Source of the DNA: Rhizobium sp. Q54
GTDB taxonomy: Bacteria; Pseudomonadota; Alphaproteobacteria; Rhizobiales; Xanthobacteraceae
NCBI GenBank assembly: GCA_945861265.1
Contig: CAMAUC010000001.1
Span: 124,001-188,000, forward strand
DNA: 64,000 nucleotides
Reading direction: 5' to 3'
Positions 1 to 42,755 of the stretch are shown in pieces. A program made the position numbers and the translations under genes. The notes below the pieces were generated by a model. That model saw only the letters and a list, made by a program, of their open reading frames with translations. It had not been told where the DNA came from and did no database searches. Numbering within the stretch: the stretch's first letter is position 1; each line of letters begins with the position of its first letter.

Positions 1-1
1 G

Positions 2-3350: not shown

Positions 3351-3550
3351 GTACGCCGAGCGGTACAACATAGCATTCACGCACACACGTTAAGTGCATA
3401 GAAAATATACGAAATCTCGCTTTGGCCGCCCTCTCCATCATCGGGGCGATAGAGAATTGTCTATTTATATCAGGCATTTATTGACTTGTTCGGCGTGCGC
3501 TGAGAATGATGGATCAAACAACCATATTCAATCGCAATCAGCAAACAAGG
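3351..3550 (-). repeat. Dispersed repeat copy A with a dusA 5'-end fragment (att-like)
   Basis: First of four same-orientation copies. It starts at GTACGCCGAGCGGTACAACA (3351-3370), contains TTAAGTGCATAGAAAAT, then CTCTCCATCATCGGGGCGA, and ends past 3480. Read on the minus strand from the ATG at 3477 it encodes MPDINRQFSIAPMME. This matches the N-terminus of DusA (consensus RFS[I/V]APMMDWTDRHCR) up to APMM and then diverges. To the right a short stretch (AATCGCAA at 3530-3537, CAAACAAGG at 3542-3550) matches copies B and C, with an internal deletion. It lies between the tail-to-tail ends of the crotonase and GcvH-like genes. The att-site role is inferred from the dusA similarity. Confidence 0.7.
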
Positions 3551-3599
3551 CGCGAAAGATTGCCGGCAGCAAGGCTCCTCGAATGTCGCTTTGTGCCAG

Positions 3600-4040
3600 C
3601 TAGCCCGCGCGGTCTTTGTATGACCCGCCGGCGACCCAGTGCTGCATTGCTGGCCCGATGTCGGCGCCGGTCACCAGTCCCGCACGCCAGTCATCATTCG
3701 CCGGCCGCACAATGCACATCCAGCCTTGTCCGAAAGGGTCGTCGTTCAGCAGTCCCGGCTTGTCGACCAGCGCATCGTTTTGCGCAAGCATCGTGCCGTC
3801 GAATGCCGCGCGCGCGGCGCCCACCCATTTGCCACCCTCGACCATGGCAAACCAGCGCTCCTTCTCGAAATCGTGGCCAAGCCGCTTGGGTGTGAACACC
3901 AGCACATCGCCCATCAGCGAGACGGCCCACGGCGTGAATCCGTTGCGCAATGTGCCGTCCGGCAATGGCTCATACCAGATCTGGTTTTCGACATCGTAGA
4001 ACAGGTGCTCGGGAAATTCGTAGTCCTGAACCTTTGCCAC
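3600..4040 (-). CDS. GcvH-like lipoyl-carrier protein
   Basis: 146 residues from GTG at 4040 (GGAAGG seven bases upstream); a TTG at 4055 is an alternative. The fold is that of glycine-cleavage H proteins. The segment around residues 67-80 (MVEGGKWVGAARAAFDG) aligns with the lipoylation loop VESVKA, placing the lipoyl lysine at about K71. The later NDDPFGQGWM matches the NEDPYGEGW block. No gcvT or gcvP is nearby, so it is unlikely to serve glycine cleavage. H-like carriers beside DsrE-type proteins occur in sulfur-transfer systems, and the next gene upstream is DsrE-like. A lipoate-bound sulfur carrier role is inferred, not shown. Confidence 0.75.
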   Translation of the reverse strand: MAKVQDYEFPEHLFYDVENQIWYEPLPDGTLRNGFTPWAVSLMGDVLVFTPKRLGHDFEKERWFAMVEGGKWVGAARAAFDGTMLAQNDALVDKPGLLNDDPFGQGWMCIVRPANDDWRAGLVTGADIGPAMQHWVAGGSYKDRAG

Positions 4041-4062
4041 GGCCAAGCCTTCCAAGATGCCT

Positions 4063-4440
4063 TTAAAAAGTGAGGACGCGGCATTCGCCGTCCATGACGT
4101 CCTGAATCATGGCGGCAGCACCCATAACACCTTTGCATTCGGGGATGAAATCGGCTTCGGTCTTGTCAAACAAATCGAGATTAGCCGGACAAGCCCAAAA
4201 CGTCGCGCCCTGGCCGTGCGCCTCCTTGATCCAGTCATAGACGGTCATCGGATCGCCAGGCTTGACGTGAATAGCTTGCGCGACACCCTGGAGTATGAGC
4301 TTGCCGGCCGTCGCCGTGCATAAAACGTCGACAGTGTGGTCCATCGCGGCGGCGACCGCGGCATAATAGAACGGTGCACCGAGCTCTTCCGGATTACGCG
4401 GATCGGTGTTCATCAGCACGATCAGCAGGCGGCGGGTCAC
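4063..4440 (-). CDS. DsrE-family protein
   Basis: 125 residues starting with GTG at 4440. The N-terminal strand RLLIVLMNTDPRNPEELGAP, the following AVAAAMDHTVDVLCT and the later ATFWACPANLDLF block are typical of the small DsrE/DsrF/TusD fold. Members relay persulfide sulfur or act as scaffold proteins. C98 in FWACPANL is a candidate sulfur-carrying cysteine. The gene ends 22 bases before the start of the GcvH-like gene on the same strand, so the two are probably translated from one mRNA. No full dsr or shdr cluster is visible here. Confidence 0.7.
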   Translation of the reverse strand: MTRRLLIVLMNTDPRNPEELGAPFYYAAVAAAMDHTVDVLCTATAGKLILQGVAQAIHVKPGDPMTVYDWIKEAHGQGATFWACPANLDLFDKTEADFIPECKGVMGAAAMIQDVMDGECRVLTF

Positions 4441-4540
4441 AACGAATGCGCTTCCCGCGTCCGGGATGCTGTGCGGCTTTCAAGACTATCGCCGACGACA
4501 AACGAGTCGGTGCCGATCTCATCGGCAAACAGGCGCTCTG

Positions 4541-4768
4541 CTAAAGAACGCTCTTGATCGCCCAAAATGCCGGGCCGACGGACCGGCGCAATACATTCGA
4601 CAGCTGAGCAATAAGCGTCAACAGCCAGCGATCCAATTCGTCTTTAGGAAACAGCCATTTCCCGGTAACCTTCGTGCATGGGATGGCGCCTTCTGCCACC
4701 AGTTCATAGACTTTTCGCTCTTTCAGCCGGAGATACTCGGCTGCCTCAGCGGTCGTAAAAAGCATCAT
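4541..4768 (-). pseudogene. Excisionase-type helix-turn-helix regulator, N-terminal fragment
   Basis: 75 codons. Residues 1-50 (MMLFTTAEAAEYLRLKERKV, then VTGKWLFPKDELDRWL) form a clean MerR/excisionase-like HTH_17 domain. From established knowledge, this domain usually heads a roughly 300-residue regulator with a periplasmic-binding-protein-like sensor, often encoded beside NAD-dependent formate dehydrogenase genes. Here similarity stops near residue 52 and the rest (LTLIAQLSNVLRRSVGPAFW) is not recognisable, so the gene seems truncated. The presence of fdsD and a piece of fdhD just upstream on the same strand supports the formate dehydrogenase link. It could also be a genuine small DNA-binding protein. 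The 100 bases between 4441 and 4540 contain no complete gene. Confidence 0.6.
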
Positions 4769-4874
4769 GGAAGGTCTGCCCAGCGCGCGGAATGTCGCAC
4801 TCTGGCAGAACAGACATTAAATACAACGGCACAATCGAAGGGCGCCGGGCCCTTGCTGCGGCCGAGTAAGCCGC

Positions 4875-5135
4875 TCAGGCTTTCGCTTCCGCCCGCTTAA
4901 GGCGACTGACGGCCTCGAAGACCGCCGGATCCAGCCCGCTCCCTCCGCCGTCCAGATGCTCGTAGATGGCATGGCGCATGCGAGGATCCCAGAATTTCCT
5001 GATGTGCGCGGCGGTACCCGGAATCGCCATAGCCGATCCCTGGCTTGCGAAGAACTTGCCGATATGGTTCGCCATATAGACCAGCCTGTCAGGCGAGGAT
5101 ATGCACGCTCCTGTCTGCCTTGATGCGGCCGCCAT
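4875..5135 (-). CDS. fdsD: NAD-dependent formate dehydrogenase delta subunit (FdsD)
   Basis: 86 residues from ATG at 5135; the upstream limit is uncertain. LVYMANHIGKFFASQG and HIRKFWDPRMRHAIYEHLDG are signatures of the small delta subunit of soluble molybdenum formate dehydrogenases. It overlaps the end of the fdhD remnant, which matches the known order fdsG-fdsB-fdsA-fdhD-fdsD. The large subunits are missing from the window, so this is an orphan left after loss of the rest of the operon. It may no longer be expressed because the operon promoter is gone, unless it is read through from the ABC transporter genes upstream. Confidence 0.8.
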   Translation of the reverse strand: MAAASRQTGACISSPDRLVYMANHIGKFFASQGSAMAIPGTAAHIRKFWDPRMRHAIYEHLDGGGSGLDPAVFEAVSRLKRAEAKA

Positions 5136-5247
5136 GCGTGACGATTTCAAAGCCGACGCTGCGCGCGACTGCAATCAATGTAATGCCCGCCGCTTCCGCA
5201 ACGCGGACCGCCAGCGCGGTCGGCGCCGAGATTGCGACCAGAACCGA
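5089..5247 (-). pseudogene. fdhD: FdhD (formate dehydrogenase sulfurtransferase) C-terminal remnant
   Basis: Reading the minus strand to the TGA at 5089-5091 gives about 52 residues, including VLVAISAPTALAVRVAEAA and ITLIAVARSVGFEIVTHGGR. These match the final segment of FdhD, which passes sulfur to the molybdenum cofactor of formate dehydrogenase. The first roughly 220 residues are absent: upstream of 5247 the frame runs into the 3' end of an unrelated solute-binding protein gene (stop at 5270). The break therefore lies at about 5247-5270. Together with fdsD this marks a formate dehydrogenase operon cut by an insertion or deletion. Confidence 0.75.
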
Positions 5248-5269
5248 CAGGCAGCTATTTCCCCACCCA

Positions 5270-6316
5270 TTATTTGCCGAACGGTTTTTCCTTATCAAGC
5301 CGGGCCTTAGCCTCTTTGGCAATGCTCAGGTCGAACAGCTTGTCTTCCGCCACCGGATTTTCGACATAGGTGAAATAGCTCGACCAGTAATCCTGCATTG
5401 CCATCACCGATTTGACGTTCGGGATGCCGTCTTCGTTCGACGACGACCAGTTCGGCGCAATGGCCCGCACCAGTTCAGGCTTCTGCAGGGCGGTGCTGCG
5501 GGCAAGAATATCGACGATCTCCGGATATTTCGCCGGGTCGGCGGCGGCGGCGTTGAATTCCTTGACACCCTGTAGGTAAGCCATGGCGAAGCGCACCAAT
5601 ACATCGCGCTTGCTCTTGATGAAATCCGTACGCGCGGCATAGAGGCCGACCGCGCCATCCGGGTCGATCTGGTCGTCAACGGCGACGATCGGGCCCCATT
5701 TGTTGTTCTGCGCGAAATAGCCAAACTGATAGGCCAGATCGGTAGCGTCGACCTGTTTCTGGCCGAGCATCTTCATCAGGTCCGGCTGCGGCACATTGGT
5801 GACCCACTGCACGTCTTTGCGCGGATCAAGCCCGGCATTCTGCAAAGCTCGCGCAAAGAGATACTGGTTGATACTGCCGGTCGCTGACAGACCGACGCGC
5901 TTGCCCTTGAGCTTGGCGAAGTCCGCGAGCGACTTGACGCCCCCGTCATACATATCCTGCGTCACATTTATCACAGTATAGCCGCGGCCCTTCTTGTTGT
6001 TGCCGCGGTCAAGAACGAACACCAACGGCGCGCCCTTGGAGATGCTGTTGAACAGGCCGGCATTGGCCGTCATGAAGGAGATGTCGAGTTCACCCGAGAT
6101 CAGCGACGGCACCGCTAGCGCGCCGTCAATGAAGGACTTGGTCTCGACGGTGATGCCGACTTTGTCGAAATAGCCTTTCTCCTTGGCGATAAAGAAGCCG
6201 CCACCGGTGATGAAAGGCCCCTCACCGACCCGGATCAGGTCCGCGGCGCTGGCGGGCGAGATGGCGAGTGCCGACGCCATAATGGCGAGGGTTGCAAGCG
6301 AACGAACGAACTTCAT
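5270..6316 (-). CDS. ABC transporter solute-binding protein, NitT/TauT (NMT1/SsuA-like) family
   Basis: 348 residues with a Sec signal peptide (MKFVRSLATLAIMASALAIS, cleavage after ASA near residue 24). The mature part shows the SsuA/NMT1 pattern: an early strand, then GGGFFIAKEKGYFDKVGITV and GELDISFMTANAG. The later KGKRVGLSATGSINQYLFAR is also typical. This class binds nitrate, sulfonates, pyrimidine precursors, aromatic acids and similar solutes; the ligand cannot be deduced. It is the last gene of an operon with a RidA-like protein, ATPase and permease (8377 to 5270). It abuts the broken formate dehydrogenase remnant. Confidence 0.88.
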   Translation of the reverse strand: MKFVRSLATLAIMASALAISPASAADLIRVGEGPFITGGGFFIAKEKGYFDKVGITVETKSFIDGALAVPSLISGELDISFMTANAGLFNSISKGAPLVFVLDRGNNKKGRGYTVINVTQDMYDGGVKSLADFAKLKGKRVGLSATGSINQYLFARALQNAGLDPRKDVQWVTNVPQPDLMKMLGQKQVDATDLAYQFGYFAQNNKWGPIVAVDDQIDPDGAVGLYAARTDFIKSKRDVLVRFAMAYLQGVKEFNAAAADPAKYPEIVDILARSTALQKPELVRAIAPNWSSSNEDGIPNVKSVMAMQDYWSSYFTYVENPVAEDKLFDLSIAKEAKARLDKEKPFGK

Positions 6317-6349
6317 TTTGCTTCTCCATGAAAAACAATAACCGGCGTT

Positions 6350-7147
6350 TCAGTGCTCCCGATGCGCCCAGGGAGCGATAAGATGGTCGATGCGCTTCTG
6401 CGCGCTGGTAATCACGGCGCCGAAAATGGCTAGCACGATCAACCCGGCGAATACCTTTTCAGTCTCCAGTACCTGTCCGGCGTGAATGAGCAGATAGCCC
6501 ATGCCGCTGTCGCTGGTGCCGCCGATCATTTCGGCCGCCACGATCATAATCATGGTCACACCCATGCCAAGCTGCAGGCCGGAGAAAATGCCGGGCAGCG
6601 CCGCGGGAATCACAACGTTGTATTGAATCTGGCGCGTATTGGCGCCGAGATCCTTAGCGGCTTTCATCAGGCCTGTGTCGACCTGCCGGATCGCCGCAAA
6701 TGTACTAATGACGACCGGAAAGAACGCAGTCACCGCGCTGATAACGATCTTGTAGGATTCGCCGGTACCGAGCCAGATGATCAGCAGCGGGATCAGCGAG
6801 ATCTTCGGCAGCGGATACAAGGCGCCGATCCACGGCTCAAAGATGCGGGCGGTCAAAGGCGACATGCCCATGGCAATGCCAACCAGAACGCCGGCAATTG
6901 CCGCGACACTAAAGCCGACAAGGATGCGAAGAAACGTGACCGACAGGTGATAAGGCATAGAGCCATCAACCGTCATGGCGAATAAATATTTCAGGATGAC
7001 ACTTGGCGCCGGCAGGAAGATCGGCGCGATGCCATTGAGGCGCACCGCGAGTTCCCAGGCCACCAGCACGGCAGCGATCACCAGATAGGGCGCGGCCCAG
7101 TAAATCACCGCCTTTGTCCTGCTCTGGCGCTGCGCTCCGGCGTTCAT
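6350..7147 (-). CDS. ABC transporter permease, NitT/TauT (SsuC/TauC-like) family
   Basis: 265 residues with about six membrane segments. The first is near residues 15-35 (VIYWAAPYLVIAAVLVAWEL). The cytoplasmic EAA-type coupling loop reads AAKDLGANTRQIQYNVVIPA, followed by ALPGIFSGLQLGMG. The inner-membrane subunit pairs with the ATPase encoded upstream, whose stop overlaps this start by four bases (7144-7147), and with the binding protein encoded 33 bases downstream. Confidence 0.9.
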   Translation of the reverse strand: MNAGAQRQSRTKAVIYWAAPYLVIAAVLVAWELAVRLNGIAPIFLPAPSVILKYLFAMTVDGSMPYHLSVTFLRILVGFSVAAIAGVLVGIAMGMSPLTARIFEPWIGALYPLPKISLIPLLIIWLGTGESYKIVISAVTAFFPVVISTFAAIRQVDTGLMKAAKDLGANTRQIQYNVVIPAALPGIFSGLQLGMGVTMIMIVAAEMIGGTSDSGMGYLLIHAGQVLETEKVFAGLIVLAIFGAVITSAQKRIDHLIAPWAHREH

Positions 7148-7950
7148 GTCGATCCCGCCGTCGCTTCTTGTTGCTGGCGCATGCTCAGGAGGACTTCCTC
7201 GCGAATGAGATGCAGGGCGCGGTCGTAGAGCCTGCCGAATTCAGGCGTGTTGATCATTTCCTGCGACCTCGGCCGCGGAAGGTTGACCGGGATGACCTCC
7301 TTGATGCGCCCAGGCCGCGCCGTCATTACCACGACCTCGTCGCCGAGCAAGATCGCTTCGTCAATGGCATGCGTCACGAAAAGTATGGTCATCTTCGAGC
7401 GCTCGTAGATGCGAACCAATTCTTCCTGCATCACGATCTTGGTCTGGGCGTCGAGCGCCGCAAAGGGCTCATCCATCAGCATGATCGGTCGTTCCATGAT
7501 CAGCGCGCGTGCCAGAGCAACACGCTGCCGCATTCCGCCGGACAATTGCGGTGGCCGATGCTGCTCGAAACCGCGCAAGCCAACTGAAGTCAGAAGAGCG
7601 TCGGCGCGCTGGTGTCGCTCGGCCGTCGGCACGCCCTGCATCTCAAGCCCGAAGGCAACGTTGTCGATCACCGTGCGCCAGGGAAAGAGATTGAGGTGCT
7701 GCCAGACCATGACCGAATGGGTACCGAGCGGCTGCGCGGCACTGCCCTTCCCGCCAATGGTCACGGAACCGCTGGTAAACGGCTCAATGCCGCCAACGAT
7801 CTGCGCCAAGGTGCTTTTGCCACAGCCGCTTGGCCCGAGAATGCAGGTGAAGCGTTGCGAGGGAAAAGTATGCGTTACGCGGTCGAGCGCGACCACTGGA
7901 CGGGAAGCGGCGCCGAAGACCTGGGTCAAGTTCGCGACGACGATGTCCAT
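7144..7950 (-). CDS. ABC transporter ATP-binding protein, NitT/TauT (SsuB/TauB-like) family
   Basis: 268 residues. Walker A is GPSGCGKST near residues 39-47, the ABC signature LSGGMRQRVALARAL lies near 136-150, and Walker B is PIMLMDEPFAALD near 155-167. An H-loop follows (ILFVTHAIDEAI). It energises the adjoining permease. It starts 40 bases after the RidA-like gene, so all four genes likely share the promoter at about 8455-8482. Confidence 0.92.
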   Translation of the reverse strand: MDIVVANLTQVFGAASRPVVALDRVTHTFPSQRFTCILGPSGCGKSTLAQIVGGIEPFTSGSVTIGGKGSAAQPLGTHSVMVWQHLNLFPWRTVIDNVAFGLEMQGVPTAERHQRADALLTSVGLRGFEQHRPPQLSGGMRQRVALARALIMERPIMLMDEPFAALDAQTKIVMQEELVRIYERSKMTILFVTHAIDEAILLGDEVVVMTARPGRIKEVIPVNLPRPRSQEMINTPEFGRLYDRALHLIREEVLLSMRQQQEATAGST

Positions 7951-7990
7951 CAGCCTGGCTCACATCGGAAATGGGGTGATCGGCTGCGTG

Positions 7991-8377
7991 TCATGGGATG
8001 ACCGCGATGCCCTGGATCTCAATCAGGATTTCCGGCTGGGCAAAGCCGGTGACGGTGAGAGCTGCGCTGGCCGGAAAATCCTTGCCGAAGATCTCGTCGC
8101 GAATTTCAGTCATCGCCGTGGTGTGGCGCACGTCGGTGAGAAACACGGTCATCGTGACCAAGTCGGACAATTTCGCACCCGCTTCGGCCAATGTCACTTC
8201 GATGTTGCGGAAAGTTCGGCGGCACTGCGCGGCGAAATCAGCGATCGGCGAACCGTCTTCCGCCTTCTGGCCGGTATGGCCAGCGACGTAGATCGTCCTG
8301 GCGGCGCCGGTAATAATGACCGCCGGGGAAAACGCGCGCTTCTGTTGCCAAGTGCCGCGAACAAATGTCTTTTGCAC
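7991..8377 (-). CDS. RidA (YjgF/YER057c/UK114) family enamine/imine deaminase-like protein
   Basis: 128 residues, standard length for the trimeric RidA family. AARTIYVAGHTGQ near the N-terminus, FRNIEVTLAEAGAKLSDLVT in the middle, and RDEIFGKDFPASAALTVTGF followed by ILIEIQGIAV are family blocks. The usual substrate-binding arginine position near the end of this region (PARTxV) reads PASAAL, so the canonical Arg is not visible. Deaminase activity is therefore doubtful and it may belong to a different RidA subgroup. It is the first gene of the NitT-type ABC operon and is divergent from a MarR regulator, suggesting a catabolic role for the imported solute. Confidence 0.82.
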   Translation of the reverse strand: MQKTFVRGTWQQKRAFSPAVIITGAARTIYVAGHTGQKAEDGSPIADFAAQCRRTFRNIEVTLAEAGAKLSDLVTMTVFLTDVRHTTAMTEIRDEIFGKDFPASAALTVTGFAQPEILIEIQGIAVIP

Positions 8378-8444
8378 GAAGGGCTCCCGGTATTGCCGGC
8401 GTTGACACCGGGAAGAATTCCGCTCGCGTCCAGCCGCTCAGCCT

Positions 8445-8482
8445 GATAGAAACTATCATGACATCGAGTATCTTAATGTCAA
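8445..8482 (-). promoter_or_regulatory. Minus-strand promoter with GATAG-AAA-CTATC palindrome (MarR operator candidate)
   Basis: On the minus strand TTGACA (8477-8482) and CATGAT (8455-8460) are separated by 16 bases, a good sigma70-like promoter aimed at the RidA/ABC operon. A perfect inverted repeat GATAG-AAA-CTATC (8445-8457) sits at the expected transcription start. The divergent MarR gene begins at 8458, directly beside it. Repression by that MarR protein, relieved by the transported ligand, is inferred. Confidence 0.5.
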
Positions 8483-9075
8483 GACAGTTAGCCGCCCGCG
8501 GCAAAAGCGGCAGGGCCTCGAACAGGGCGTCCCCGGCTGCTGCGCCTGCTGCGGACTCGATCGAGCCGTTTGTTCATGCCTGGCACCGCGAACGCCCCGA
8601 TCTCGAGTCATGGCCGTTCGCCATCTTCGGCCGCATCTGGCGTCTCTCAACAAGCCTTGTCAGCGACGCCGAGCGCTGGCTGGCGCCGATCGGCCTCACC
8701 TTTGAATCCTTCAGCGTCATCGTGACGTTGAGGCGCGCCGGCGCGCCGTTTGAAATGAATCCGACCGCGCTCTATCGCGAGTCGCTGTTGTCCTCCGGCG
8801 CAATCACCAATCGGATCGACCGCGTCGAAGCCGCGGGCCTGGTCAAGCGCCTGCCCGATCGGAACGATCGGCGCGGCACCATCGTGCGTCTTACGCCTAA
8901 GGGCCGAGCATTGGCCGATCGCGCCATCAAGCTGCATTTCGAGGCGCTGGCGGAATCGCTTGGCGGCATCAACAAAGCCGAACACGCGCAGCTCACTGCT
9001 CTGCTATCAAAGCTTTTGCTTTCGGTGGAGCAAAACAGGCCGACTACCCCTAAAACGCGAAGCCGGCGGGGCTGA
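8458..9075 (+). CDS. MarR-family transcriptional regulator
   Basis: 205 residues from ATG 8458; a second in-frame ATG at 8476 is possible and neither has a strong ribosome site. A low-complexity Ala/Ser stretch precedes the winged-helix domain. This runs from about residue 50 (WPFAIFGRIWRLSTSLV) through the DNA-recognition segment (LYRESLLSSGAITNRIDRVE) to the wing (LVKRLPDRNDRRGTIVRLTP). The protein probably controls the divergent RidA/ABC operon, given the palindrome at its start. The C-terminal tail is rich in Lys/Arg. Confidence 0.85.
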   Translation: MTSSILMSRQLAARGKSGRASNRASPAAAPAADSIEPFVHAWHRERPDLESWPFAIFGRIWRLSTSLVSDAERWLAPIGLTFESFSVIVTLRRAGAPFEMNPTALYRESLLSSGAITNRIDRVEAAGLVKRLPDRNDRRGTIVRLTPKGRALADRAIKLHFEALAESLGGINKAEHAQLTALLSKLLLSVEQNRPTTPKTRSRRG

Positions 9076-9264
9076 CGTGTAATGAAGCCCAGCACGTCCA
9101 CTTTGATATTCGGATTTCTAAAACCCGGATACCGCTACAATTCGGCGCCTGGACGGACGATGAATGAAGCTTATTTTTTTGCGGCCGCTCTCGCATCAGA
9201 GATCGCTTGTCGGAAGCCGGATGCGTCCAAGACTCCCGGCACCCGGAAAGTCCCTATAATGAAC

Positions 9265-9462
9265 GCTGGAGTTCCTCGCTGGCGCCAGAACGCCACCCTC
9301 GGTGACTTGCTGCTGAATGACAGAGCGTTCAGCGGTACGCGACTTCAACGCGTTGGAAGCCACATTGAAAGCCGTGCGTGCCTCGTCAAGGCGCGCCTTG
9401 GGAATAGTGCCACGGCTAAAAAGGTATTCACCGCGCGTAAGGCCGGTGCCAATAGCGGACAA
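9265..9462 (-). pseudogene. Fragment of a periplasmic adaptor (HlyD/membrane-fusion) protein
   Basis: About 66 codons on the minus strand resemble the alpha-helical hairpin of RND/ABC efflux adaptor proteins: TRGEYLFSRGTIPKARLDEA, then a coiled-coil-like stretch ending in EGGVLAPA. In intact proteins the last motif continues into a beta-barrel domain (LAPADGRV). Here it goes to RNSSVHYRDF and stops. The N-terminal and C-terminal domains and any pump gene are missing, so this is a relic. The surrounding 9076-9584 stretch holds no other recognisable gene. Confidence 0.5.
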
Positions 9463-9584
9463 TTGCGCTGACGCGCAGGTGGCGCGCAGAAGAACAATGC
9501 CCGCTCTTCAATGAAAACGTAAGTCTTCATTGAGATCAAAGCGCAATAAGGCACTCGGGCGGTGCATACGAGACCGCCGCGGTG

Positions 9585-10625
9585 TCACTGGCGCTTTCTC
9601 GTCTTTATCAACTCGTGCAGCAAACCAAGATTTTCCGGCCCCGGCTTCAGGAGACCCTGCTCTATCCGGTGCGCCAGTTCGACGATCGCGGAATTGACCG
9701 GCAGCGAAAGGCCCAGCCGCATGGCTTCATCGACGACTTGACCATTGAGGTTGTCGACCTCGCTGCGGCGACCCTTCATCCAATCCTGCAACACAGTCGT
9801 CAGCGTACTCTCGATGGTGAAGCCCTTGACCAAAGTGTCGAGCAGCGTTTCCACCAGCCGGTTGGACTGGCGAATGTCGTCAGGTTTCATCCCAAAAATA
9901 GGCACCGCCGGATGGCCCAGGGCCTTACCCGTGTCGAACGCCTCCTGGCCGGACATAAGCATGATTTCACACATGGCCGGTGTCGTCGCCGCGCTATGGA
10001 TCGACTGGCCAAGGATCGCGGTCGTCACCAAAGTGGTGCAATTGCTCACCAGCTTCATCCATTTGCTGGCGCGAATGTCGCTGACATATTCAACCGTGCC
10101 GGCGTGCTTCAGCAAATCACCGACCTCCGCCTCGCGGCCCACGACGCGCTTGTCAATACCGCCGACGGCGAACCAGGACCGCGACGGCGGTGAGTCACGC
10201 TGCACGACACCGGGGTCGAACATGGTCGACGAAATTTCGATCACGCAACCCATCGTGCGCTGCGGCCCGACGACGTCGGCGATAACATCGGTGGTCATAC
10301 CATTCTGCACACCGGCGACAAGACCGCTTGCCTTCAGATATGGCTCGATTAATTGGCAGGCCCACCGCGTATCGTAGGCCTTCATCAGCAGCAGAACGAC
10401 GTCAAAAGGTTGGGTAAAAGTGCAGACGTCGCAAAGATTATAGGCGCGAACCGCGGTCGTTTGCGTCTCCCCGGGCATGTCGATACGGATGCCGTTCTGG
10501 CGCATGGCCGCGACGTGTTCCGGCCATTGGTCGATCAGCACGACATCGGCGCCGGCGCGCGTAAGATCGGCGCCGATAGACGCGCCATTCGCGCCGCTGC
10601 CGAGGACTGCTATTCTCTTGGACAT
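9585..10625 (-). CDS. Ketopantoate reductase-like (ApbA/PanE family) NADP-dependent oxidoreductase
   Basis: 346 residues. The Rossmann N-terminus has RIAVLGSGANGASIGADL. The C-terminal helical domain includes the lysine region RASKWMKLVSNCTTL and the late RRSEVDNLNGQVV with GLSLPVNSAIV, all family hallmarks. PanE reduces 2-dehydropantoate to pantoate, but many paralogues act on other 2-keto or 3-hydroxy acids. The context (broken GMC oxidoreductase upstream, 2-hydroxy-acid dehydrogenase and sugar transporter further on) suggests a catabolic paralogue rather than pantothenate synthesis. Confidence 0.85.
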   Translation of the reverse strand: MSKRIAVLGSGANGASIGADLTRAGADVVLIDQWPEHVAAMRQNGIRIDMPGETQTTAVRAYNLCDVCTFTQPFDVVLLLMKAYDTRWACQLIEPYLKASGLVAGVQNGMTTDVIADVVGPQRTMGCVIEISSTMFDPGVVQRDSPPSRSWFAVGGIDKRVVGREAEVGDLLKHAGTVEYVSDIRASKWMKLVSNCTTLVTTAILGQSIHSAATTPAMCEIMLMSGQEAFDTGKALGHPAVPIFGMKPDDIRQSNRLVETLLDTLVKGFTIESTLTTVLQDWMKGRRSEVDNLNGQVVDEAMRLGLSLPVNSAIVELAHRIEQGLLKPGPENLGLLHELIKTRKRQ

Positions 10626-10637
10626 TGTCGAAATCCC

Positions 10638-35006: not shown

Positions 35007-35030
35007 GGCGAATTCTCCCTCGGGCGACTT

Positions 35031-35054: not shown

Positions 35055-35152
35055 TTAGATTGGTATCGTGGCAGAACACAATGGCCAAAAGAACGGCCGG
35101 AAGCTTTTTAGCCGGCTTCCCGGTAATTTGCTGCAGGAGCGAAGTGATCGGC

Positions 35153-35791: not shown

Positions 35792-35812
35792 GCGCACCGG
35801 CCGGTCGATTGG

Positions 35813-35848
35813 CTATGGAATTTAAAATTCGATTGAGCTATAGAATTA
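35813..35848. promoter_or_regulatory. Direct half-sites before the acyl-CoA ligase gene
   Basis: CTATGGAATTT at 35813-35823 and CTATAGAATTA at 35838-35848 are direct repeats 25 bases apart. The core matches the half-sites of the 35031-35054 palindrome (CTATAGAAT on the minus strand). They lie 32-67 bases upstream of the ligase ATG, a fitting place for repression by the adjacent TetR. Confidence 0.45.
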
Positions 35849-35879
35849 GATCAGAGGAAACACGCGAGAAGAGCGCCGT

Positions 35880-37766
35880 ATGACCGCGTCCGCCACGGTC
35901 TATCGAGAACGCTTGCGCCGCACCACCGCTCCGCATTTGTTGTGTGAGCGTGCGCGCGTGACGCCGGATTCCGTTGCCTTCCGTTCAAAGCATTTCGGTA
36001 TCTATCGCGAACGGCGCTGGCGCGACTATGCCGCGCTGGTGACGCACGCCGCGCGCGCCCTGCAATCGCTCGGCATCGGGCGCGGCGAACGAGTCGCCAT
36101 CATGGGCGATGTTTGCGAAGAATGGATGATTTGCGATCTTGCCGCCCAATCGCTCGGCGCCATCGTCTACGGCATCTATCCGACCGCGTCGGCGGCTGAG
36201 GTCGAGTATCAGATGCGCGATGGCGGCGCCTGCGTGTTCATTGCCGAAGACCAGGAATATGTCGATCGCATCTTGCCTTTCGCCGATCAGTTGCCGGATC
36301 TGCGCACGATCGTGGTGCTCGACGATTCGGCCATGTTTGGATACGAACACCCGAAATTGCGCCGGTTTGGTGAACTTCTCGACGCCGTGGCAAAAGCCGA
36401 TCTCGGCTGGCTCGAAGCGCAGGTTGCATTGGTTTCAGCCGATGATCCCGCTTTCATCGTCTACACCTCCGGCACCACCGGCCACCCGAAAGGCGCGCTG
36501 GTCAGCCACGGCAAACATCTCGCCGCGACCGACACCGTGGTTTCGCACTATCCGACCCTTCGCGAGAAGCCGCACCGGACCGTGGTGTTCCTGCCAATGT
36601 GCCACGTGCTCGGCCGCGACGTCGCCATCACGCTGCCGCTGATTTCGCAGCTTGTGCCGCATTTCGGCGAGGACCCCGAGGATTTTGCCGTCACCTTGTT
36701 CGAAGTGGCGCCGACCGTGCTGTTCATGGTGCCGCGCTATCTGCAAAAATTTGCCTCACACGTACTGGTCGGCATTCTCAATTCGAGCCGGATCAAGCGC
36801 GCCGCCCATGACTCCGCCATGCGCTTTGCCCGCCCCTATGCCACCCGACGCTGGAATGGCGGCTCCAATATCGTGCAGGACGCGATCTATCGGCTTGTTC
36901 GATTGGCGGTGTTCAAGCCGATCCTCAACAAGCTCGGCTTCGACCGGCTGGAACTGGTGGTGAGCGGCGGCGCTTCGCTGCCGGCCGAAACCATGGCGCT
37001 TTGGCATGTCTACGGCGTCAATGTCGTCGAGATGTACGGCCAGACCGAGGAAGCTGGCGGCATCATCGCCGGTCAGCGCGGTCCCTTCCCGCGGCCCGGC
37101 AATGTCGGCACGGCGATCGATGGCATCGACGTCCGGCTCGCCGAAGACGGTGAGGTACTGGTGCGCAGTCCCGACCTGTTCGACGGCTATTGGCGCAACG
37201 ACGAGGCGACGCGGGAGGTCAAGGGCGCCGACGGCTGGCTGCGCACCGGCGATGTCGGCGAATGGCGCGGCGGCGCCTTGCGGCTGATCGATCGCGCGCG
37301 CGATTTCATGGTCACCGCCGGCGGCAAGACCATTTCGCCCTCCTTCATCGAGAATACCCTGCGCGCCAGCCCCTATGTGGCGGAAGCAGTGGTCTTCGGA
37401 CACGGCCGAAAATATCTTACTGCGATTATCGAGATCGACTTCGACACCGTCGCCGACTGGGCGCGCGCCAACGACGTCGCCTATACGGGCTTCACCAGCC
37501 TGACGGCGCACCCGCGTATCGCGCGGCTGATCGAGATCGAAATCGACAAGGCCAATGCATCGCTGGCGCGGGTCGAGCAGATCAAATCTTTCCGCATTCT
37601 GCCCAAGGCGCTCGATCCGGAAGAAGAAGGCGAGCCGGTGACCCCGACCCGCAAGGTCAAGCGCAAGCTGATGTACGAGCGCTTCAAGGTGCTGATCGAG
37701 GGAATGTATGACGACAGCGACGAACGCCTGATCGCCGCCGGCGTCGGCGGCGTTCTGGCGGGATAA
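35880..37766 (+). CDS. Long-chain acyl-CoA synthetase (AMP-forming)
   Basis: 628 residues. The AMP-binding P-loop YTSGTTGHPKGALVSHGKH lies near residues 194-212, the A5-type motif VEMYGQTEEAGG near 382, and the hinge region with LRTGDVGEWRGGALRLIDRA near 453. The C-terminal lysine region is present. Overall layout resembles the FAD15-like long-chain fatty-acid or aryl-acid ligases of about 600 residues. It activates a carboxylic acid to its CoA thioester. Following genes encode a branched-chain-type ABC importer, so the ligase probably activates the imported acid. Confidence 0.9.
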   Translation: MTASATVYRERLRRTTAPHLLCERARVTPDSVAFRSKHFGIYRERRWRDYAALVTHAARALQSLGIGRGERVAIMGDVCEEWMICDLAAQSLGAIVYGIYPTASAAEVEYQMRDGGACVFIAEDQEYVDRILPFADQLPDLRTIVVLDDSAMFGYEHPKLRRFGELLDAVAKADLGWLEAQVALVSADDPAFIVYTSGTTGHPKGALVSHGKHLAATDTVVSHYPTLREKPHRTVVFLPMCHVLGRDVAITLPLISQLVPHFGEDPEDFAVTLFEVAPTVLFMVPRYLQKFASHVLVGILNSSRIKRAAHDSAMRFARPYATRRWNGGSNIVQDAIYRLVRLAVFKPILNKLGFDRLELVVSGGASLPAETMALWHVYGVNVVEMYGQTEEAGGIIAGQRGPFPRPGNVGTAIDGIDVRLAEDGEVLVRSPDLFDGYWRNDEATREVKGADGWLRTGDVGEWRGGALRLIDRARDFMVTAGGKTISPSFIENTLRASPYVAEAVVFGHGRKYLTAIIEIDFDTVADWARANDVAYTGFTSLTAHPRIARLIEIEIDKANASLARVEQIKSFRILPKALDPEEEGEPVTPTRKVKRKLMYERFKVLIEGMYDDSDERLIAAGVGGVLAG

Positions 37767-37812
37767 TGCGGCAATGAAAAAGCTCAACAAGACGAAAACG
37801 GGAGGAATGAAA

Positions 37813-38967
37813 ATGCTCAAGAGGACCCTGCTCGGCGCAATAGCGATTTGCGCCTTGACGATTCCGGCGTCCGCTCAGGATGCCTATGTAGTCGGCCTGA
37901 CCGGTGCGCTCACCGGCCCGCCCTCCAGCACCTATGCGCCCGCGGTCGATGCCCTCGGCCTCTACATCGACCGCGTCAACGCGGCCGGCGGCGTCAACGG
38001 CAAGAAGATCCAGCTCATTCTCGAAGACGACGGCGCGCAGCCGTCAAAGGCGGCGGCCAACACCAAGAAGCTGATCACGCAGGACAAGGCGGTGCTGATC
38101 CTCAACGCCAGCCTGTCCTCGACCTACGCACCGGTCATCGCGGAGACCCAGGCCGCCGGTGTGCCGTTGCTGTTTGCAAGCTCGGTCTGCCCGAAGAGCG
38201 TCTATCCGCCGGCCGAACCGTTGCAGTTCTGCACCACCGGCTTTGCCGCGAACTACGACAGTCAGGCGACGCTCGACTTCATCAAGGCGCGCGCGAAAGG
38301 CCCGGTGAAGATCGGCTTCTCGGCGATGGCTATCCCGTTGTCGCGGGGCGAGATCGACTATGCCGAAAATCTGTCGAAAGAGATGGGCATGACCCCGGTC
38401 GACAAGGAAGTGATCCCGCCGCCGACGGCTGACTACACATCGTTCGCCACCAAGCTCAAGGACGCGGGCCCTAATTGGGTCTATTCGTGGGCACCGTGGG
38501 TGACGCAGGTGCGCACGCTGGAAGCCCTGCGCAAACTCGGCTGGCAGGACGATTACGTCGCTTGGGGCCATCTCGAAGCGGAAAGCGAATTGTCGCGGCT
38601 CAAGGACGGCAAATTCTTTGTCGTCAACTCGAACGCGCTTTTCCAGGAAGCCTTGCCGATCCACAAGGAAATCGAAGAAGCCGCCAAAAAGGCCGGCTCG
38701 AAATATCCAGCCGCCACCATGGCCGAAGGCTGGATCGCCGGCATGGCGATCGAAGCCGCGCTCAAAGGCGCGGGTTGGCCGGCGGATCCGGCCAAGCTGA
38801 AGGCTTCGATGGAGAACCTCAAGGTTGACACCAAGGGTCTGCGCGGCGGGCCGATCGAATGGACCAAGGACAACCACTTCCGCACCAAGCTTTACTACCG
38901 GGTTTACACCTGGTCGGGCGACAAGATTTCCCGGGTTCAGGATTGGAAGTCATACGACGTGAAGTGA
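37813..38967 (+). CDS. Branched-chain-type ABC transporter solute-binding protein (LivJ/LivK-like)
   Basis: 384 residues from ATG 37813, chosen because GGAGGA lies six bases upstream; ATGs at 37774 and 37807 are less well placed. The signal peptide is MLKRTLLGAIAICALTIPAS with cleavage after ASA. The mature part has the type-I fold: YVVGLTGALTGPPSS, VNGKKIQLILEDDGAQPSKA. Such proteins in Hyphomicrobiales often bind aromatic or fatty acids rather than amino acids. It lies 46 bases after the acyl-CoA ligase gene. Confidence 0.88.
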   Translation: MLKRTLLGAIAICALTIPASAQDAYVVGLTGALTGPPSSTYAPAVDALGLYIDRVNAAGGVNGKKIQLILEDDGAQPSKAAANTKKLITQDKAVLILNASLSSTYAPVIAETQAAGVPLLFASSVCPKSVYPPAEPLQFCTTGFAANYDSQATLDFIKARAKGPVKIGFSAMAIPLSRGEIDYAENLSKEMGMTPVDKEVIPPPTADYTSFATKLKDAGPNWVYSWAPWVTQVRTLEALRKLGWQDDYVAWGHLEAESELSRLKDGKFFVVNSNALFQEALPIHKEIEEAAKKAGSKYPAATMAEGWIAGMAIEAALKGAGWPADPAKLKASMENLKVDTKGLRGGPIEWTKDNHFRTKLYYRVYTWSGDKISRVQDWKSYDVK

Positions 38968-38994
38968 AGAACGCCGCAGCGCATCACTAACTTT

Positions 38995-39016
38995 CCCTCC
39001 CCCTAAAGGGGGAGGG
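38995..39016. terminator. Perfect GC-rich hairpin between binding-protein and permease genes
   Basis: CCCTCCCCC (38995-39003) pairs with GGGGGAGGG (39008-39016) around a TAAA loop. There is no following T-run. It lies 28 bases after the binding-protein stop, where a partial terminator or a 3' stabilising hairpin would give higher expression of the binding protein than of the membrane subunits. Confidence 0.5.
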
Positions 39017-39075
39017 TTCAATCCGCCGCCGCTTCAAATTTATCCGATTTTTAGCGCCATTCGGAAGCCCTCTCT

Positions 39076-39948
39076 TTGCAACTCCTCATCAACATCGTCG
39101 TCCTCGCCTCGATCTACGCCCTGATCGCCTGCGGTTACGTCTTGATCTATCGCGTCAGCCGCGTGCTCAATCTCGCGCACGGCGAACTGATGATGTTCGG
39201 CGCCTATCTGGTGCTGGCCTGCTCCTCTTTGTTTGCCGGCCATCCCGTCATGGCGCTCTGCGCTGCCGTGATCTTGAGCCTCGTTACCGGCGCGCTGGTC
39301 TATATCTTTCTGATGCGCAAGATGACTGGCGAGATGGTGCTGGCCGCCATTCTCACCACGGTCGCGCTCGGCATTCTGGTCCGCGGCGTTGTCGTCCTGG
39401 TCTGGTCGTCGCAGCAGCAGTACCCGGCGCAGGCACTGGGTATCTCCAACCCGACCTTCACCCTGCCCGGCGACGGGCACATCTCCCTGTGGTCGCTGGT
39501 GCTGGTGCTCACCAACCTTGCCGCTTACGGCGCGCTGTTCGGCTTCCTGCGCTTCGGCCGTTGGGGCATGCGCATGCGCGCCGCCGGGCAAAATCCGCTG
39601 CTCGCCGCGCAGCGCGGCATTAATCTCCATGGCGTCTATGCCTTGGCCTGGAGCCTGTCGACGCTGACGGGCGCGCTTGCCGGTATTTTGATGGCGCTGG
39701 ATTCCGGCGTGACCGGCAGCATGCCGGTGATCGCGCTCAAAGCCTTCCCGGCTGCGTTGGTTGGCGGGCTCGACAGCCTGGGCGGCGCATTGATCGGCGC
39801 GCTGATCGTCGCCGGCGCCGAGGTGCTGCTTATCTATTACGTCGACCCGCTCTTGTCGGACGTGGTGCCCTTCCTGGTGCTGGTCGCCATGCTGTTCGTG
39901 CGGCCCTGGGGCCTGTTCGGTACGCGCGAGGAACTTGACCGTGTTTAG
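39076..39948 (+). CDS. Branched-chain-type ABC transporter permease (LivH-like)
   Basis: 290 residues with a TTG start at 39076; no better start is visible upstream. About eight membrane segments. The segments YVLIYRVSRVLNLAHGELMM and MRAAGQNPLLAAQRGINLHG (EAA-like loop), and the later ALKAFPAALVGGLDSLGGAL, are family signatures. The gene overlaps the next permease gene by eight bases. Confidence 0.9.
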   Translation: MQLLINIVVLASIYALIACGYVLIYRVSRVLNLAHGELMMFGAYLVLACSSLFAGHPVMALCAAVILSLVTGALVYIFLMRKMTGEMVLAAILTTVALGILVRGVVVLVWSSQQQYPAQALGISNPTFTLPGDGHISLWSLVLVLTNLAAYGALFGFLRFGRWGMRMRAAGQNPLLAAQRGINLHGVYALAWSLSTLTGALAGILMALDSGVTGSMPVIALKAFPAALVGGLDSLGGALIGALIVAGAEVLLIYYVDPLLSDVVPFLVLVAMLFVRPWGLFGTREELDRV

Positions 39949-41023
39949 GCCGACACCGCGCGCCAGCGGCTATTTCCGTACCGATTATGCGCAGGACCTT
40001 GCGCTGCTGCAGACGCGCGCCGAGCGCATCGGCCTTGCCGCATTGGTCGCCATACTGGTGACATTGCCTTTCGTCGCAACGCCCTTCTTGCTCGATCTCG
40101 CCTGCCAGGTATTTCTGGCCTCGATCGGCGCGTTGTCGCTGATGCTGCTCACTGGATATGCCGGCCAGATCTCGCTCGGGCACGCCGGACTGATCGCCGC
40201 CGGCGCCTTCACAACAGGCATCCTGACGCGCGAAATTCATGCACCCTTCTGGGTCACCTTGCCAGCTTCGGCTCTGACCGGCGTTGTCCTGGGCCTCGTC
40301 TTTGGCCTGCCGTCGCTACGTCTGCGCGGGCTCTATCTCGCCGTCAGCACGCTGGCACTGCATTTCATCGTCATCTATCTCGGTGGCGAATACGAAACCA
40401 AGCGCGGCTTCTCGACCGGCATCCTGATCGAGAAGCCCAGCCTCGGCGGCTTCAAGCTGACCGACGGCCGCGCCTGGTACTTCGTTCTGCTGATATTTGC
40501 GGCTGCGACGTTGCTGATCTGCATCAATCTGCTGCGCAGCCGCAGCGGACGCGCCTGGCGCGCCATCCATGCGCGCGAAACGGTCGCCGAAGCCCTTGGC
40601 ATCAGCATCTCCGGCTACAAGCTACTCGCCTTCGTGATCTCGTCGGCGATGACATCCGTCGCAGGGTGCCTGTTCGCCTACTACCGTGGTTTCGTCTCGA
40701 TCGAAGCCTTCGACCTGTTCCTGTCGATCCAGTACGTCGCCATGATCATCATCGGCGGCATGGGGTCTCTCCTGGGAGCCTTGCTCGGCGCCGCCTTCGT
40801 AACCGTTTTTCCCTATGCAATTGAGGCCCTCCTCAAGCTGCTGCCAAATGTGCAAAAGCTCGCCGGGGATATTTTCGCCGTCAACTACGCCTCATTCGGC
40901 GTAGTGATGATCCTGTTCCTTATCCTGGAGCCACTGGGCCTGGTCGGCATCTGGCGGCGGCTGCAGAATTACTTTCTGCTGTGGCCATTCAAATACAAGC
41001 CGCTGGCGGGCACGCGCAAATGA
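39941..41023 (+). CDS. Branched-chain-type ABC transporter permease (LivM-like)
   Basis: 360 residues from GTG 39941, preceded by GAGGAA at seven-base spacing (a TTG at 39935 is too close to that site). Hydrophobic throughout; LTGYAGQISLGHAGLIAAGA and WRAIHARETVAEALGISISG are LivM hallmarks, as is YVAMIIIGGMGSLLGALLGA. Partner of the LivH-like permease. Its TGA overlaps the ATG of the following ATPase gene. Confidence 0.9.
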   Translation: MFRPTPRASGYFRTDYAQDLALLQTRAERIGLAALVAILVTLPFVATPFLLDLACQVFLASIGALSLMLLTGYAGQISLGHAGLIAAGAFTTGILTREIHAPFWVTLPASALTGVVLGLVFGLPSLRLRGLYLAVSTLALHFIVIYLGGEYETKRGFSTGILIEKPSLGGFKLTDGRAWYFVLLIFAAATLLICINLLRSRSGRAWRAIHARETVAEALGISISGYKLLAFVISSAMTSVAGCLFAYYRGFVSIEAFDLFLSIQYVAMIIIGGMGSLLGALLGAAFVTVFPYAIEALLKLLPNVQKLAGDIFAVNYASFGVVMILFLILEPLGLVGIWRRLQNYFLLWPFKYKPLAGTRK

Positions 41024-41832
41024 ACGCTCCCCTGCTCCAGGTCGAACAGATCGAAGTGGTCTACAAGCGCGTCATCACGGCCGTGCAGGGCGTGACTTTG
41101 GCCGTGCCGCAAGGACAGATCGTGGCGCTGCTCGGCACCAACGGCGCCGGCAAGTCGACGACGCTGCGGGCGATTTCCGGCTTCCTCGGACTCGACGACG
41201 CCGTCGTAACCGAAGGTAGCATAACGTTTGATGGTGCGGCGTTGCAGAACCGCCCGCCGCATGAAATTGCCGGGCGCGGTGTTGTGCTGGTGCCCGAGCG
41301 CGAAAAGGTGTTCCCCAACCTCACCGTGGCCGAAAACCTCGCCGCCCCGGTTGCCCGCGGCACGAAGGCGCGCGATCGGCGACCGCACGAAGAGCACATC
41401 TATCATTTCTTTCCCCGCCTCGCCGAACTGCGCGACCGTACCGGCGGGCTGCTCTCCGGCGGCGAACGCCAGATGCTCGCGATCGCCAGCGCCTTGATGT
41501 GCCGTCCGAAGCTGCTGCTGATCGACGAACTGTCGCTTGGCCTTGCGCCGGTCGTGGTCGGCGACCTCGTCCGCAGGCTTTGCGCGATCCGCGACGAACT
41601 CGGTATCGCCATCTTGCTGGTCGAGCAGAGTGCCGCCGTGGCGCTGGAAATCGCCGACTATGCCTATGTGATGGAAAACGGCCGCATCGTGCTCGATGGC
41701 GACCGCCAGCGCCTCAAAGGCCACAAGGACGTGCAGGAGTTTTACCTCGGCAAAGGAAGTGCCGAAGACGGCGCGCGCCGCTCCTACCGCGACATCAAGC
41801 AATATCGCCGATCGCGGAGGTGGTATGGCTGA
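41020..41832 (+). CDS. Branched-chain-type ABC transporter ATP-binding protein (LivF-like)
   Basis: 270 residues from ATG 41020. Walker A is LGTNGAGKSTTLRAI, the signature region LLSGGERQMLAIASALM and Walker B LLLIDELSLGLAPVVV. The short form and LivF-type ending place it as the LivF-like subunit. Gene order here is permease, permease, LivF, LivG, the last two swapped relative to E. coli livHMGF. Its stop overlaps the next start. Confidence 0.9.
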   Translation: MNAPLLQVEQIEVVYKRVITAVQGVTLAVPQGQIVALLGTNGAGKSTTLRAISGFLGLDDAVVTEGSITFDGAALQNRPPHEIAGRGVVLVPEREKVFPNLTVAENLAAPVARGTKARDRRPHEEHIYHFFPRLAELRDRTGGLLSGGERQMLAIASALMCRPKLLLIDELSLGLAPVVVGDLVRRLCAIRDELGIAILLVEQSAAVALEIADYAYVMENGRIVLDGDRQRLKGHKDVQEFYLGKGSAEDGARRSYRDIKQYRRSRRWYG

Positions 41833-42622
41833 ACTCGCGATCGAAAATCTGAGCCTGCGCTTCGGCGGTCTCACCGTGCTGGACAACGTGTCGTTTACGG
41901 TGGAGCCCGGCGAGTTGATGGCGCTGATAGGACCAAACGGTGCCGGCAAGACCAGCGCGCTTAATTGCATCAGCGGCATCTATCGTGGCAGTGGCGCAAT
42001 CCGCTTGCGCGGCAAAGATATTGCGGGCCTTGCTCCGCACGATATCGCTCGCCTTGGAGTCGCCCGCACCTTTCAGCACGGGGAACTGTTCCCGCAGATG
42101 AGCGTGCTGGAAAACCTCCTCACCGGCCGCCATGCCCGCATCGGCACAAATCCGCTGGCGGAGATGCTGTTCCTGCCGAGCGTGCGGCGCGCCGAAGTTG
42201 CCCACCGCGGGGAGATCGAGCGCATCATTGATCTGGTCGAACTGGAGCGCTTTCGTCACGCGCAAGTCGGCGCCTTGCCGTTCGGCGTGCAGAAAATCGT
42301 CGGCTTCGCCCGCGCGCTGGCTCTCGAGCCCACCGTGATGTTGCTGGACGAGCCTTCCGCCGGACTCAACCGCGAGGAACGCGAAGACCTCGCTCGCTTT
42401 ATTCTCCGCATCAAGCAAGAACTGAAGATGACTATCGTCTGGATCGAACACGATATGCAGATGATCGCAGACCTCGCCGACCGTATTCATGTGCTCGATT
42501 ACGGGCGCACTATCGCAGACGGCAAGCCTGACGCTGTCCTTTCCGATCCGAACGTTCTGGTCGCATATTTGGGAACGGAGACCGTTCAGAGCACAATCGT
42601 ACAGGCTACTCCCCTTCCGTAG
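41825..42622 (+). CDS. Branched-chain-type ABC transporter ATP-binding protein (LivG-like)
   Basis: 265 residues from ATG 41825. Walker A is IGPNGAGKTSALNCI, Walker B VMLLDEPSAGLNREE, H-loop MTIVWIEHDMQMIADLA. The ABC signature is non-canonical: the usual LSxGQ position reads ALPFGVQKIVGFARALA, still keeping the aligned Gly and Gln. It is the last gene before dispersed repeat D, which starts seven bases after the stop. Confidence 0.9.
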   Translation: MAELAIENLSLRFGGLTVLDNVSFTVEPGELMALIGPNGAGKTSALNCISGIYRGSGAIRLRGKDIAGLAPHDIARLGVARTFQHGELFPQMSVLENLLTGRHARIGTNPLAEMLFLPSVRRAEVAHRGEIERIIDLVELERFRHAQVGALPFGVQKIVGFARALALEPTVMLLDEPSAGLNREEREDLARFILRIKQELKMTIVWIEHDMQMIADLADRIHVLDYGRTIADGKPDAVLSDPNVLVAYLGTETVQSTIVQATPLP

Positions 42623-42628
42623 TGAAAA

Positions 42629-42755
42629 TTACGCCGAGCGGCACGACATCGAATTCGTGCACCCACGTTAAGCAATTATATAATAATAGAAATTTCCGTT
42701 CAACCCACCCTCTCCATCATCGGGGCGACTGAGAATTGTCGTGCGAGTATTGCCA
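42629..42755 (-). repeat. Dispersed repeat copy D with dusA 5'-end fragment (att-like), short form
   Basis: TACGCCGAGCGGCACGACAT at 42629 and CCTCTCCATCATCGGGGCGA near 42707 match copies A-C. The minus strand from ATG 42755 reads MAILARQFSVAPMMERVG, then a stop. The right-hand extension seen in B and C is absent. It marks the junction between the Liv-type transporter and the pteridine-like cluster and sits immediately after the livG-like stop codon. Confidence 0.68.

Follow-up and report, generated by a model that had tools for sequence, protein, structure and literature searches.

Candidate attachment sites delimiting a head-to-tail chain of metabolic gene clusters, with no integrase found, upstream of dusA in a Pseudolabrys genome

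The stretch of DNA analysed here (the window) comprises 64,000 nucleotides and corresponds to C1:124001-188000 of G000, a genome of 3.75 Mb in 133 contigs that is 95.7% complete and whose genus we have taken as Pseudolabrys. Four repeats in the window carry the 5' end of dusA and are members of a chain of six displaced sites, all of which lie on contig C1, upstream of an intact dusA gene and in its orientation. The six units that the chain delimits hold metabolic, respiratory and transport genes together with regulators, as judged by Pfam; no integrase has been found in them, and one unit is present, nearly identical and with the same borders, in a second species. The reading that we favour, with a probability of roughly 0.78, is that dusA-specific islands, with the repeats as their attachment sites, have built up head to tail on the upstream side of dusA, the units being now devoid of integrase and similar to cis-mobilizable elements (CIMEs).

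Placed and oriented as the original prediction had it, the four copies account for every occurrence in the window of the two shared motifs, each of which is found exactly four times and on one strand. Read on the minus strand, all four encode R-Q-F-S-[I/V]-A-P-M-M-[D/E] and then depart from the DusA sequence, as had also been claimed; an in-frame ATG lies five codons ahead of the Arg codon at 3434, 33445 and 42713, and two codons ahead of it at 18303. Numbered from dusA, and in window coordinates, these sites are the following.

3344..3482, minus strand: site 3; element end 3344-3433, core 3434-3447, displaced dusA 5' end MPDINRQFSIAPMME.
18213..18351, minus strand: site 4; element end, core 18303-18316, displaced dusA 5' end MNRQFSIAPMME.
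33352..33492, minus strand: site 5; element end, core 33445-33458, displaced dusA 5' end MLEINRQFSVAPMMD.
42621..42759, minus strand: site 6, the farthest from dusA among those found; element end, core 42713-42726, dusA 5' end MAILARQFSVAPMME, whose upstream stretch differs.

The intact dusA gene was expected on the minus strand at lower coordinates, and it is found there, at C1:71410-72405, ca. 52 kb to the left of the window, with the start MQQRRFNIAPMMDWTDRHCR and an alternative in-frame ATG at 72438. An exact 15-mer occurs five times in G000, always on C1 and on the same strand, and not once when read backwards as a control; a sixth displaced copy, with a variant core, is located at C1:76664 on the same strand as the others. 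Counted genome-wide, as had been proposed, all exact copies of the repeat lie within 95 kb of dusA. The 14-mer core with up to two mismatches matches 74 places in G000, mostly on other contigs and including dusA itself (C1:72368) and the sixth displaced copy. A site profile gave E-values of 1e-30 to 1e-34 for the copies in the window, which are not independent figures since the profile was built from those copies; in relatives (the comparison covered 43 genomes of the genus, G000 included), site copies outside the profile-building set score equally well, for example 1.7e-32 in G179. A tRNA gene as the integration target was rejected, the window being without tRNA.

Read toward dusA, a displaced site consists of the DusA N-terminus, a 14-bp core (GCMCCSATGATGGA in G000) and then 82-83 bp ending in GTNCCGCTCGGCGTA, a motif invariant across the seven copies first aligned, beyond which little is shared. 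The 82-83 bp stretch up to this motif is the end of an inserted element and not part of dusA. The intact gene of G000 begins MQQRRFNIAPMMD, and the displaced copies bear other 5' ends. Mean entropy at codon positions 1/2/3 in the five codons before the core, which exclude the four core codons largely fixed by the core search pattern, was 0.68/0.34/1.23 in 25 internal sites, 0.69/0.33/1.31 in the 19 internal sites outside G000 and 0.77/0.40/1.13 in 18 true dusA genes; five hits without a regular core, all of them in relatives, were excluded from this set. The element end is flat by codon position (1.59/1.50/1.65). Codon changes between copies thus show the protein-coding pattern that had been anticipated for the DusA part, and this coding-like variation fits, as support and not as proof, 5' ends each of which would once have served as a working dusA start.

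These data bear on the possibility that we are dealing with an unrelated interspersed repeat that encodes a DusA-like peptide by chance. The repeats do separate unrelated gene clusters, as such a repeat could; the exact copies, however, form one chain upstream of dusA, in a single orientation and ending in the intact gene, coding-type variation is confined to the DusA part, and the sites are unit borders in relatives. A chance or unrelated repeat is therefore extremely improbable, and was rejected on copy distribution, orientation and codon-position entropy.

In the genus, the site profile (E up to 1e-4) matches 22 of the 43 genomes, G000 among them. The match extends past profile position 120 in 17 genomes, so that most of the element end is covered; the other five show shorter coverage, which in some corresponds to the dusA gene itself, and three or more matches were obtained in eight of the 43. 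Local searches revealed chains in G153, G175, G183, G070 and G179; one bounded unit each was obtained in G174, G176 and G110, and the chains of these Pseudolabrys relatives hold units other than those of G000. Six genomes have dusA and sites on a common contig (G000, G153, G179, G174, G176 and G110), and in these all 14 of the sites with E up to 1e-4 are located upstream of dusA and share its orientation, a count that leaves out a weaker partial hit in G110 with the same orientation. A gene block downstream of dusA (at least three genes) is common to G000 and others in 15 of 21 dusA regions, and it is the upstream side that differs. The sites thus mark borders of gene content in related genomes, as predicted, and the interpretation of the repeats as attachment junctions is supported by the position of dusA, the clustering of the copies, these content borders and the coding-type codon variation.

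The exact two-part site pattern was found in eight stretches of a named genome collection, on whose records the genus assignment is based: four from three metagenome-assembled genomes (MAGs) of Pseudolabrys, two in uncultured Rhizobiales, one in a Rhizobium MAG and one in a Chloroflexi MAG (L113, 6118-6197). The single exact match in the last could be due to chance, to a binning error or to a wider distribution. Among 149 genomes of the family the exact pattern is present in two, both of the genus, while of 296 family genomes the profile matches 34; of these, 19 belong to the genus, and the other 15, each with one match, are spread over eight other genera, where some of the matches may be dusA itself. 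No stretch with the exact pattern was found in viral contigs.

Seven points, dusA and the six sites, delimit six units in G000 with 83 predicted genes in total, and attachment sites are present by sequence at both ends of every unit. The 83 genes were all scanned with Pfam, three as partial pieces, with E limits of 1e-3, 0.01, 1e-6 or 1e-8; small genes missed by the gene caller fall outside the scan. Two of the 83 have no Pfam family, and at the thresholds used (three genes in part) none belongs to a recombinase, phage or transfer family. Pfam scans of the six units, with PHROGs not run, detected no phage structural, packaging or replication genes, and serine recombinases were likewise not detected in G000's own units, the sole place looked. 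Rather than prophages, the units are metabolic clusters in which no integrase was found, and an identity as prophage remnants was rejected on the same scans. Groups by blastp (E up to 1e-15) span at most four of the six units, the four-unit groups being ATP-binding cassette (ABC) ATPases. By Pfam, the units contain the following.

Unit 1, 4,296 bp, 2 genes: family-4 glycosidase and phosphoenolpyruvate (PEP)-synthase-like enzyme.
Unit 2, 29,236 bp, 28 genes, first block: Rieske oxygenase, thiamine pyrophosphate (TPP) enzyme, aldehyde dehydrogenase, ABC and IclR genes.
Unit 2, second block: cyanuric-acid-type amidohydrolase, hydantoinases, amidase, ABC genes, LysR.
Unit 3, C1:105900-127434 (right end at window 1..3447), 21,534 bp, 20 genes: dipeptide ABC transporter, coenzyme A (CoA) transferases, acyl-CoA dehydrogenases, thiolase, enoyl-CoA hydratases, TetR.
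Unit 4, window 3434..18316, 14,869 bp, 14 genes: GcvH-like, DsrE, NMT1-type ABC, RidA-like, MarR, ketopantoate reductase-like, sugar ABC, LacI, flavin mononucleotide (FMN) dehydrogenase.
Unit 5, window 18303..33458, 15,142 bp, 11 genes: narGHJI (respiratory nitrate reductase), 913-aa major facilitator superfamily (MFS) protein, PpiC-type isomerase, NnrS, DUF2478, carbonic anhydrase, Crp-type regulator.
Unit 6, window 33445..42726, 9,268 bp site to site, 8 genes: Meth_synt_2, TetR, AMP-binding (acyl-CoA synthetase-like) enzyme, branched-chain amino-acid-type ABC transporter.

A small protein inside the oxygenase operon matches HTH_62, a domain named 'recombinase-like HTH', and is taken as accessory or regulatory. 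Seven genes of unit 4, at 9585-17987, match G183:C1:73271-81443 with a mean amino acid identity of 97%. In unit 5, the 913-aa protein (window 29483-32224), which adjoins narGHJI and has three MFS stretches, is NarK-like by context and perhaps a fused pair of NarK-like transporters.

The search for dusA-type integrases that had been proposed was successful in part: they are present at dusA in relatives, and none was detected in G000. With the G150 and G174 enzymes as queries, the best match in G000 was one of 29% on contig C30, and no PF00589 match lies on C1, all nine G000 hits (E up to 0.01) being on other contigs. Integrases of this type are located within ca. 0.3 kb of dusA or of a site in seven of the 43 genomes (G150, where a tyrosine integrase is adjacent to dusA, G174, G175, G149, G172, G169 and G070); the G172 copy showed one stop in one search and none over the part matched in another. 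Those of G150 (L046) and G174 (L104) are head to head with dusA, at most 0.3 kb from its start, and could share a control region with it. Among 24 bounded units from nine genomes, an intact integrase is present in one (G174) and remnants in two, one beside dusA in G176 (residues 1-153) and one in a unit of G153, where 90 residues are left and a stop interrupts them, and in the other 21 none was found; for the six units of G000, the searches used yielded neither a dusA-type integrase nor a remnant.

The G174 enzyme matches 152 records of a phage collection, the first two being Rhizobium phages (60%), and 2,324 plasmid records, nearly all under 60%. Its matches at 48-57% include Burkholderia phages AH2, BcepIL02, BcepMigl and DC1 and Pseudomonas phage H66, named as carriers of dusA-type integrases by Farrugia et al. 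(2015, PMC4482086), and sequence similarity of this kind supports its probable membership in the dusA-associated integrase family. Nine proteins of the 44.8-kb G174 element were scanned, with one integrase, three proteins of phage DNA metabolism (a polymerase exonuclease subunit, an endonuclease and a Ku-like protein) and no capsid or tail family among them, so that any phage-like character of the element is at most partial. The element-end motif is present at its far end with two mismatches.

Unit 6 connects two species. Positions 157445-166740 of the G000 contig (window 33445-42740) align to G179:C317 53951-44655 with 99.04% identity over 9,297 bp, and site to site the unit measures 9,268 bp in both genomes, with the same gene set and no integrase found. 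The dusA genes of G000 and G179, in contrast, are 86.7% identical over 943 bp. The unit adjoins dusA in G179, where it is the first, and is the sixth from dusA in G000, with five units in between. Beyond its borders the two sequences diverge at the cores: distally, the identity continues across the element end, with 3 differences in 87 bp, and ends just past the core, and on the other side the 5' end of the unit corresponds to the dusA start of G179 (8 differences in 62 bp). Since two species with a 13% difference in dusA have the unit at the same length, with the same gene set and with no integrase, it has moved, or reached both from a common source, after any loss of an integrase, which suggests that such modules may move between species. 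A search of 72,556 plasmid records with unit 6 gave just two matches, of 78 and 53 bases.

Three other correspondences between relatives are older than that of unit 6. G183 (121.0-150.8 kb) and G110 (62.3-92.0 kb) share 26 genes with 79.6% DNA identity over 29 kb and with sites at both ends in both; G153 (2975.2-2990.9 kb) and G155 share 12 genes (78% amino acid identity), G155 showing the dusA-side border only; and G070 and G183 share 11 genes (82% amino acid identity), with sites at both ends in G070 and not in G183. The unit lies next to dusA in G179, G110 and G155, but a site or further units intervene in the partner genome, and it is therefore suggested, from these arrangements, that insertion may take place at the dusA end.

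A different history would be that each unit arrived as a complete island or prophage bearing its own integrase, lost this gene together with its transfer genes and is immobile now. Decay of this kind is visible in the remnants of G176 and G153, and integrase-bearing elements do occur at dusA within the genus. We nevertheless consider it somewhat unlikely that this accounts for the stack, given that unit 6 is without integrase in both species and that none of the six G000 units has any integrase remnant detectable by the searches used. It is also conceivable that units were moved by homologous recombination between the flanking site repeats (ca. 135 bp) after DNA uptake, recent moves being enzyme-free. 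The sites can indeed be aligned over ca. 146 bp, with 68-80% identity over 71-116 bp, ungapped in most comparisons, and there are surplus differences beside one core of unit 6. This homology is, however, short and imperfect, the distal border of unit 6 falls at the core and not within the longer element end, which moved with the unit, and on the dusA side homology also stops at the core, so that such an origin appears improbable.

Several observations weigh against attachment sites served by a visiting enzyme, the reading that we favour. No dusA-type integrase was found in G000, at its 95.7% completeness, or in G179, so that the acting enzyme is a putative one. Most of the units would look the same had each lost an integrase once it had arrived. 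Expected sites are missing at C1 ca. 94.7-95.0 kb and at window ca. 56.9-57.0 kb. The differences in the 62 bp next to the dusA-facing core of unit 6 exceed the 0.83% of mid-unit (post hoc p 5e-8), which hints at homologous recombination or at a subsequent exchange between copies of the site; the latter is no more than our guess. Whatever the mechanism, the left border of the unit would be placed at the core, since the body of dusA lies beyond it in G179. Finally, G179 is a metagenome assembly, and a chimeric join at its junction between unit and dusA is possible.

If the sites are indeed attachment sites, each incoming unit would carry, on the side that faces dusA, a substitute 5' end for this gene, and on the opposite side an end of the GTNCCGCTCGGCGTA type. 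Insertion beside dusA would keep the gene working, and older units would be displaced outward with their unused 5' ends. Because each unit has a dusA start and an element end, the internal junctions have the layout [substitute 5' end]-core-[element end] that is expected for the joint of an excised circle (attP). An integrase that recognizes one junction should recognize the others; therefore, single units or runs of them could be excised, with neighbours carried along. Recombination would most likely be carried out by a dusA-type tyrosine integrase arriving on another element, which might act on equivalent sites, excise or co-transfer neighbouring units and later be lost. The sequences themselves show the sites with their orientation and order, the cargo, the lack of any integrase found and a near-identical unit that has the same borders in two species. 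What we infer here is an enzyme, its action in trans or in cis, a vehicle that brings it and sites that continue to function.

Related systems are in print. The dusA-specific islands described in the main text of Farrugia et al. (PMC4482086) resemble the present ones in their 5' dusA target, direct repeats at both ends and an island-supplied dusA 5' end; all 94 of them have a single gene in common, the integrase, whereas here a stack six units deep was found without any. The word 'tandem' is absent from that main text. Two distinct elements in tandem at dusA are described in Vibrio (PMC8409611), both with integrases, as opposed to six units without. The closest parallel is that of the Dehalococcoides ssrA islands (McMurdie et al. 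2011, PMC3146451), where a stack of metabolic islands lies less than 100 kb from the target gene with a repeat of that gene at each border, and where 15 of 31 islands have no integration module and are proposed to be cis-mobilizable; it differs in its target, a tmRNA gene, in a serine recombinase module in 16 of 31 and in reductive dehalogenases in the cargo. CIMEs are described as having lost integration and transfer genes, kept attL and attR and accreted with incoming elements in the target gene, and cis-mobilization of integrase-less neighbours is described at other loci (PMC5704250). The G000 units, in which neither integration nor transfer genes were found and which would keep both sites as far as their sequence tells, resemble them; accretion as described there occurs mainly with conjugative or mobilizable elements, while the one integrase-bearing unit examined, that of G174, includes some genes of phage type, and the G000 units yielded no transfer family. 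Islands in tandem at dusA are thus already known, as are metabolic islands devoid of integrase at ssrA. No literature joining dusA, tandem, Rhizobiales and integrase was found in a search that left subscription papers largely outside.

One core gene would thus serve as a landing strip for whole metabolic traits, such as nitrate respiration, in 17 of the 43 genomes of the genus, and units without recombination genes appear to cross between species with exact borders; the movement of integrase-less islands becomes testable. It also suggests that island searches requiring an integrase would overlook such stacks.

The cassettes of integrons, which have no integrase of their own, share one orientation next to an anchor site. 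An operon-scale analogue might exist in the dusA locus of Pseudolabrys: non-autonomous modules, made only of a split attachment site and whole regulated metabolic operons, would join this fixed docking site at its dusA end and would be spread among species by the integrase of visiting dusA-specific elements, with a functional dusA start in each module for an entry ticket. We regard this as a quite tentative idea, and more probably wrong than right. In contrast to integrons, the G000 units are multi-gene clusters (2 to 28 genes) instead of single-gene cassettes, and no integrase is found beside the anchor.

An attempt to identify the region right of window 42713 as the original upstream flank of dusA failed; site 6 may or may not be the original chromosomal dusA start. 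Of the genes to the right of 42713, none turned up in the dusA regions of the first relatives compared, other than on G183:C1. C1:166800-180847 (window 42800-56847) and C1:181061-197358 (window 57061 to past its end) correspond to two separate places in G183, one of which ends near a G183 site. As the two blocks are apart in G183 and one of them is near a site, the stack may once have extended further to the right, and the original start is then not necessarily the one at 42713. No recognizable dusA site is present at the junction between the blocks (window 56860-57060, C1:180860-181060), though G183 has one near the matching block end. This junction contains two successive copies of TGATACAAGACGGGAATTCCCGT, which include a short palindrome.

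The other missing site concerns the block C1:76969-94696, which is also present in G070 and G153 (19 genes, 79% amino acid identity each) and has a far-end site in G070 whose equivalent was not found in G000. At C1:94724-94888 (L010:19724-19888, minus strand) there is a 55-residue piece weakly similar to the integrase core of insertion sequences (rve_3, E 0.003, below the cut-off), and the dusA site expected here may have been destroyed by an insertion. The window also contains, at 21823-21876 and 62432-62485, a pair of 54-nt repeats, 89% identical, that start with TTTGCGCATGATC and end with GGGATCATGCGCTA, with inverted ends.

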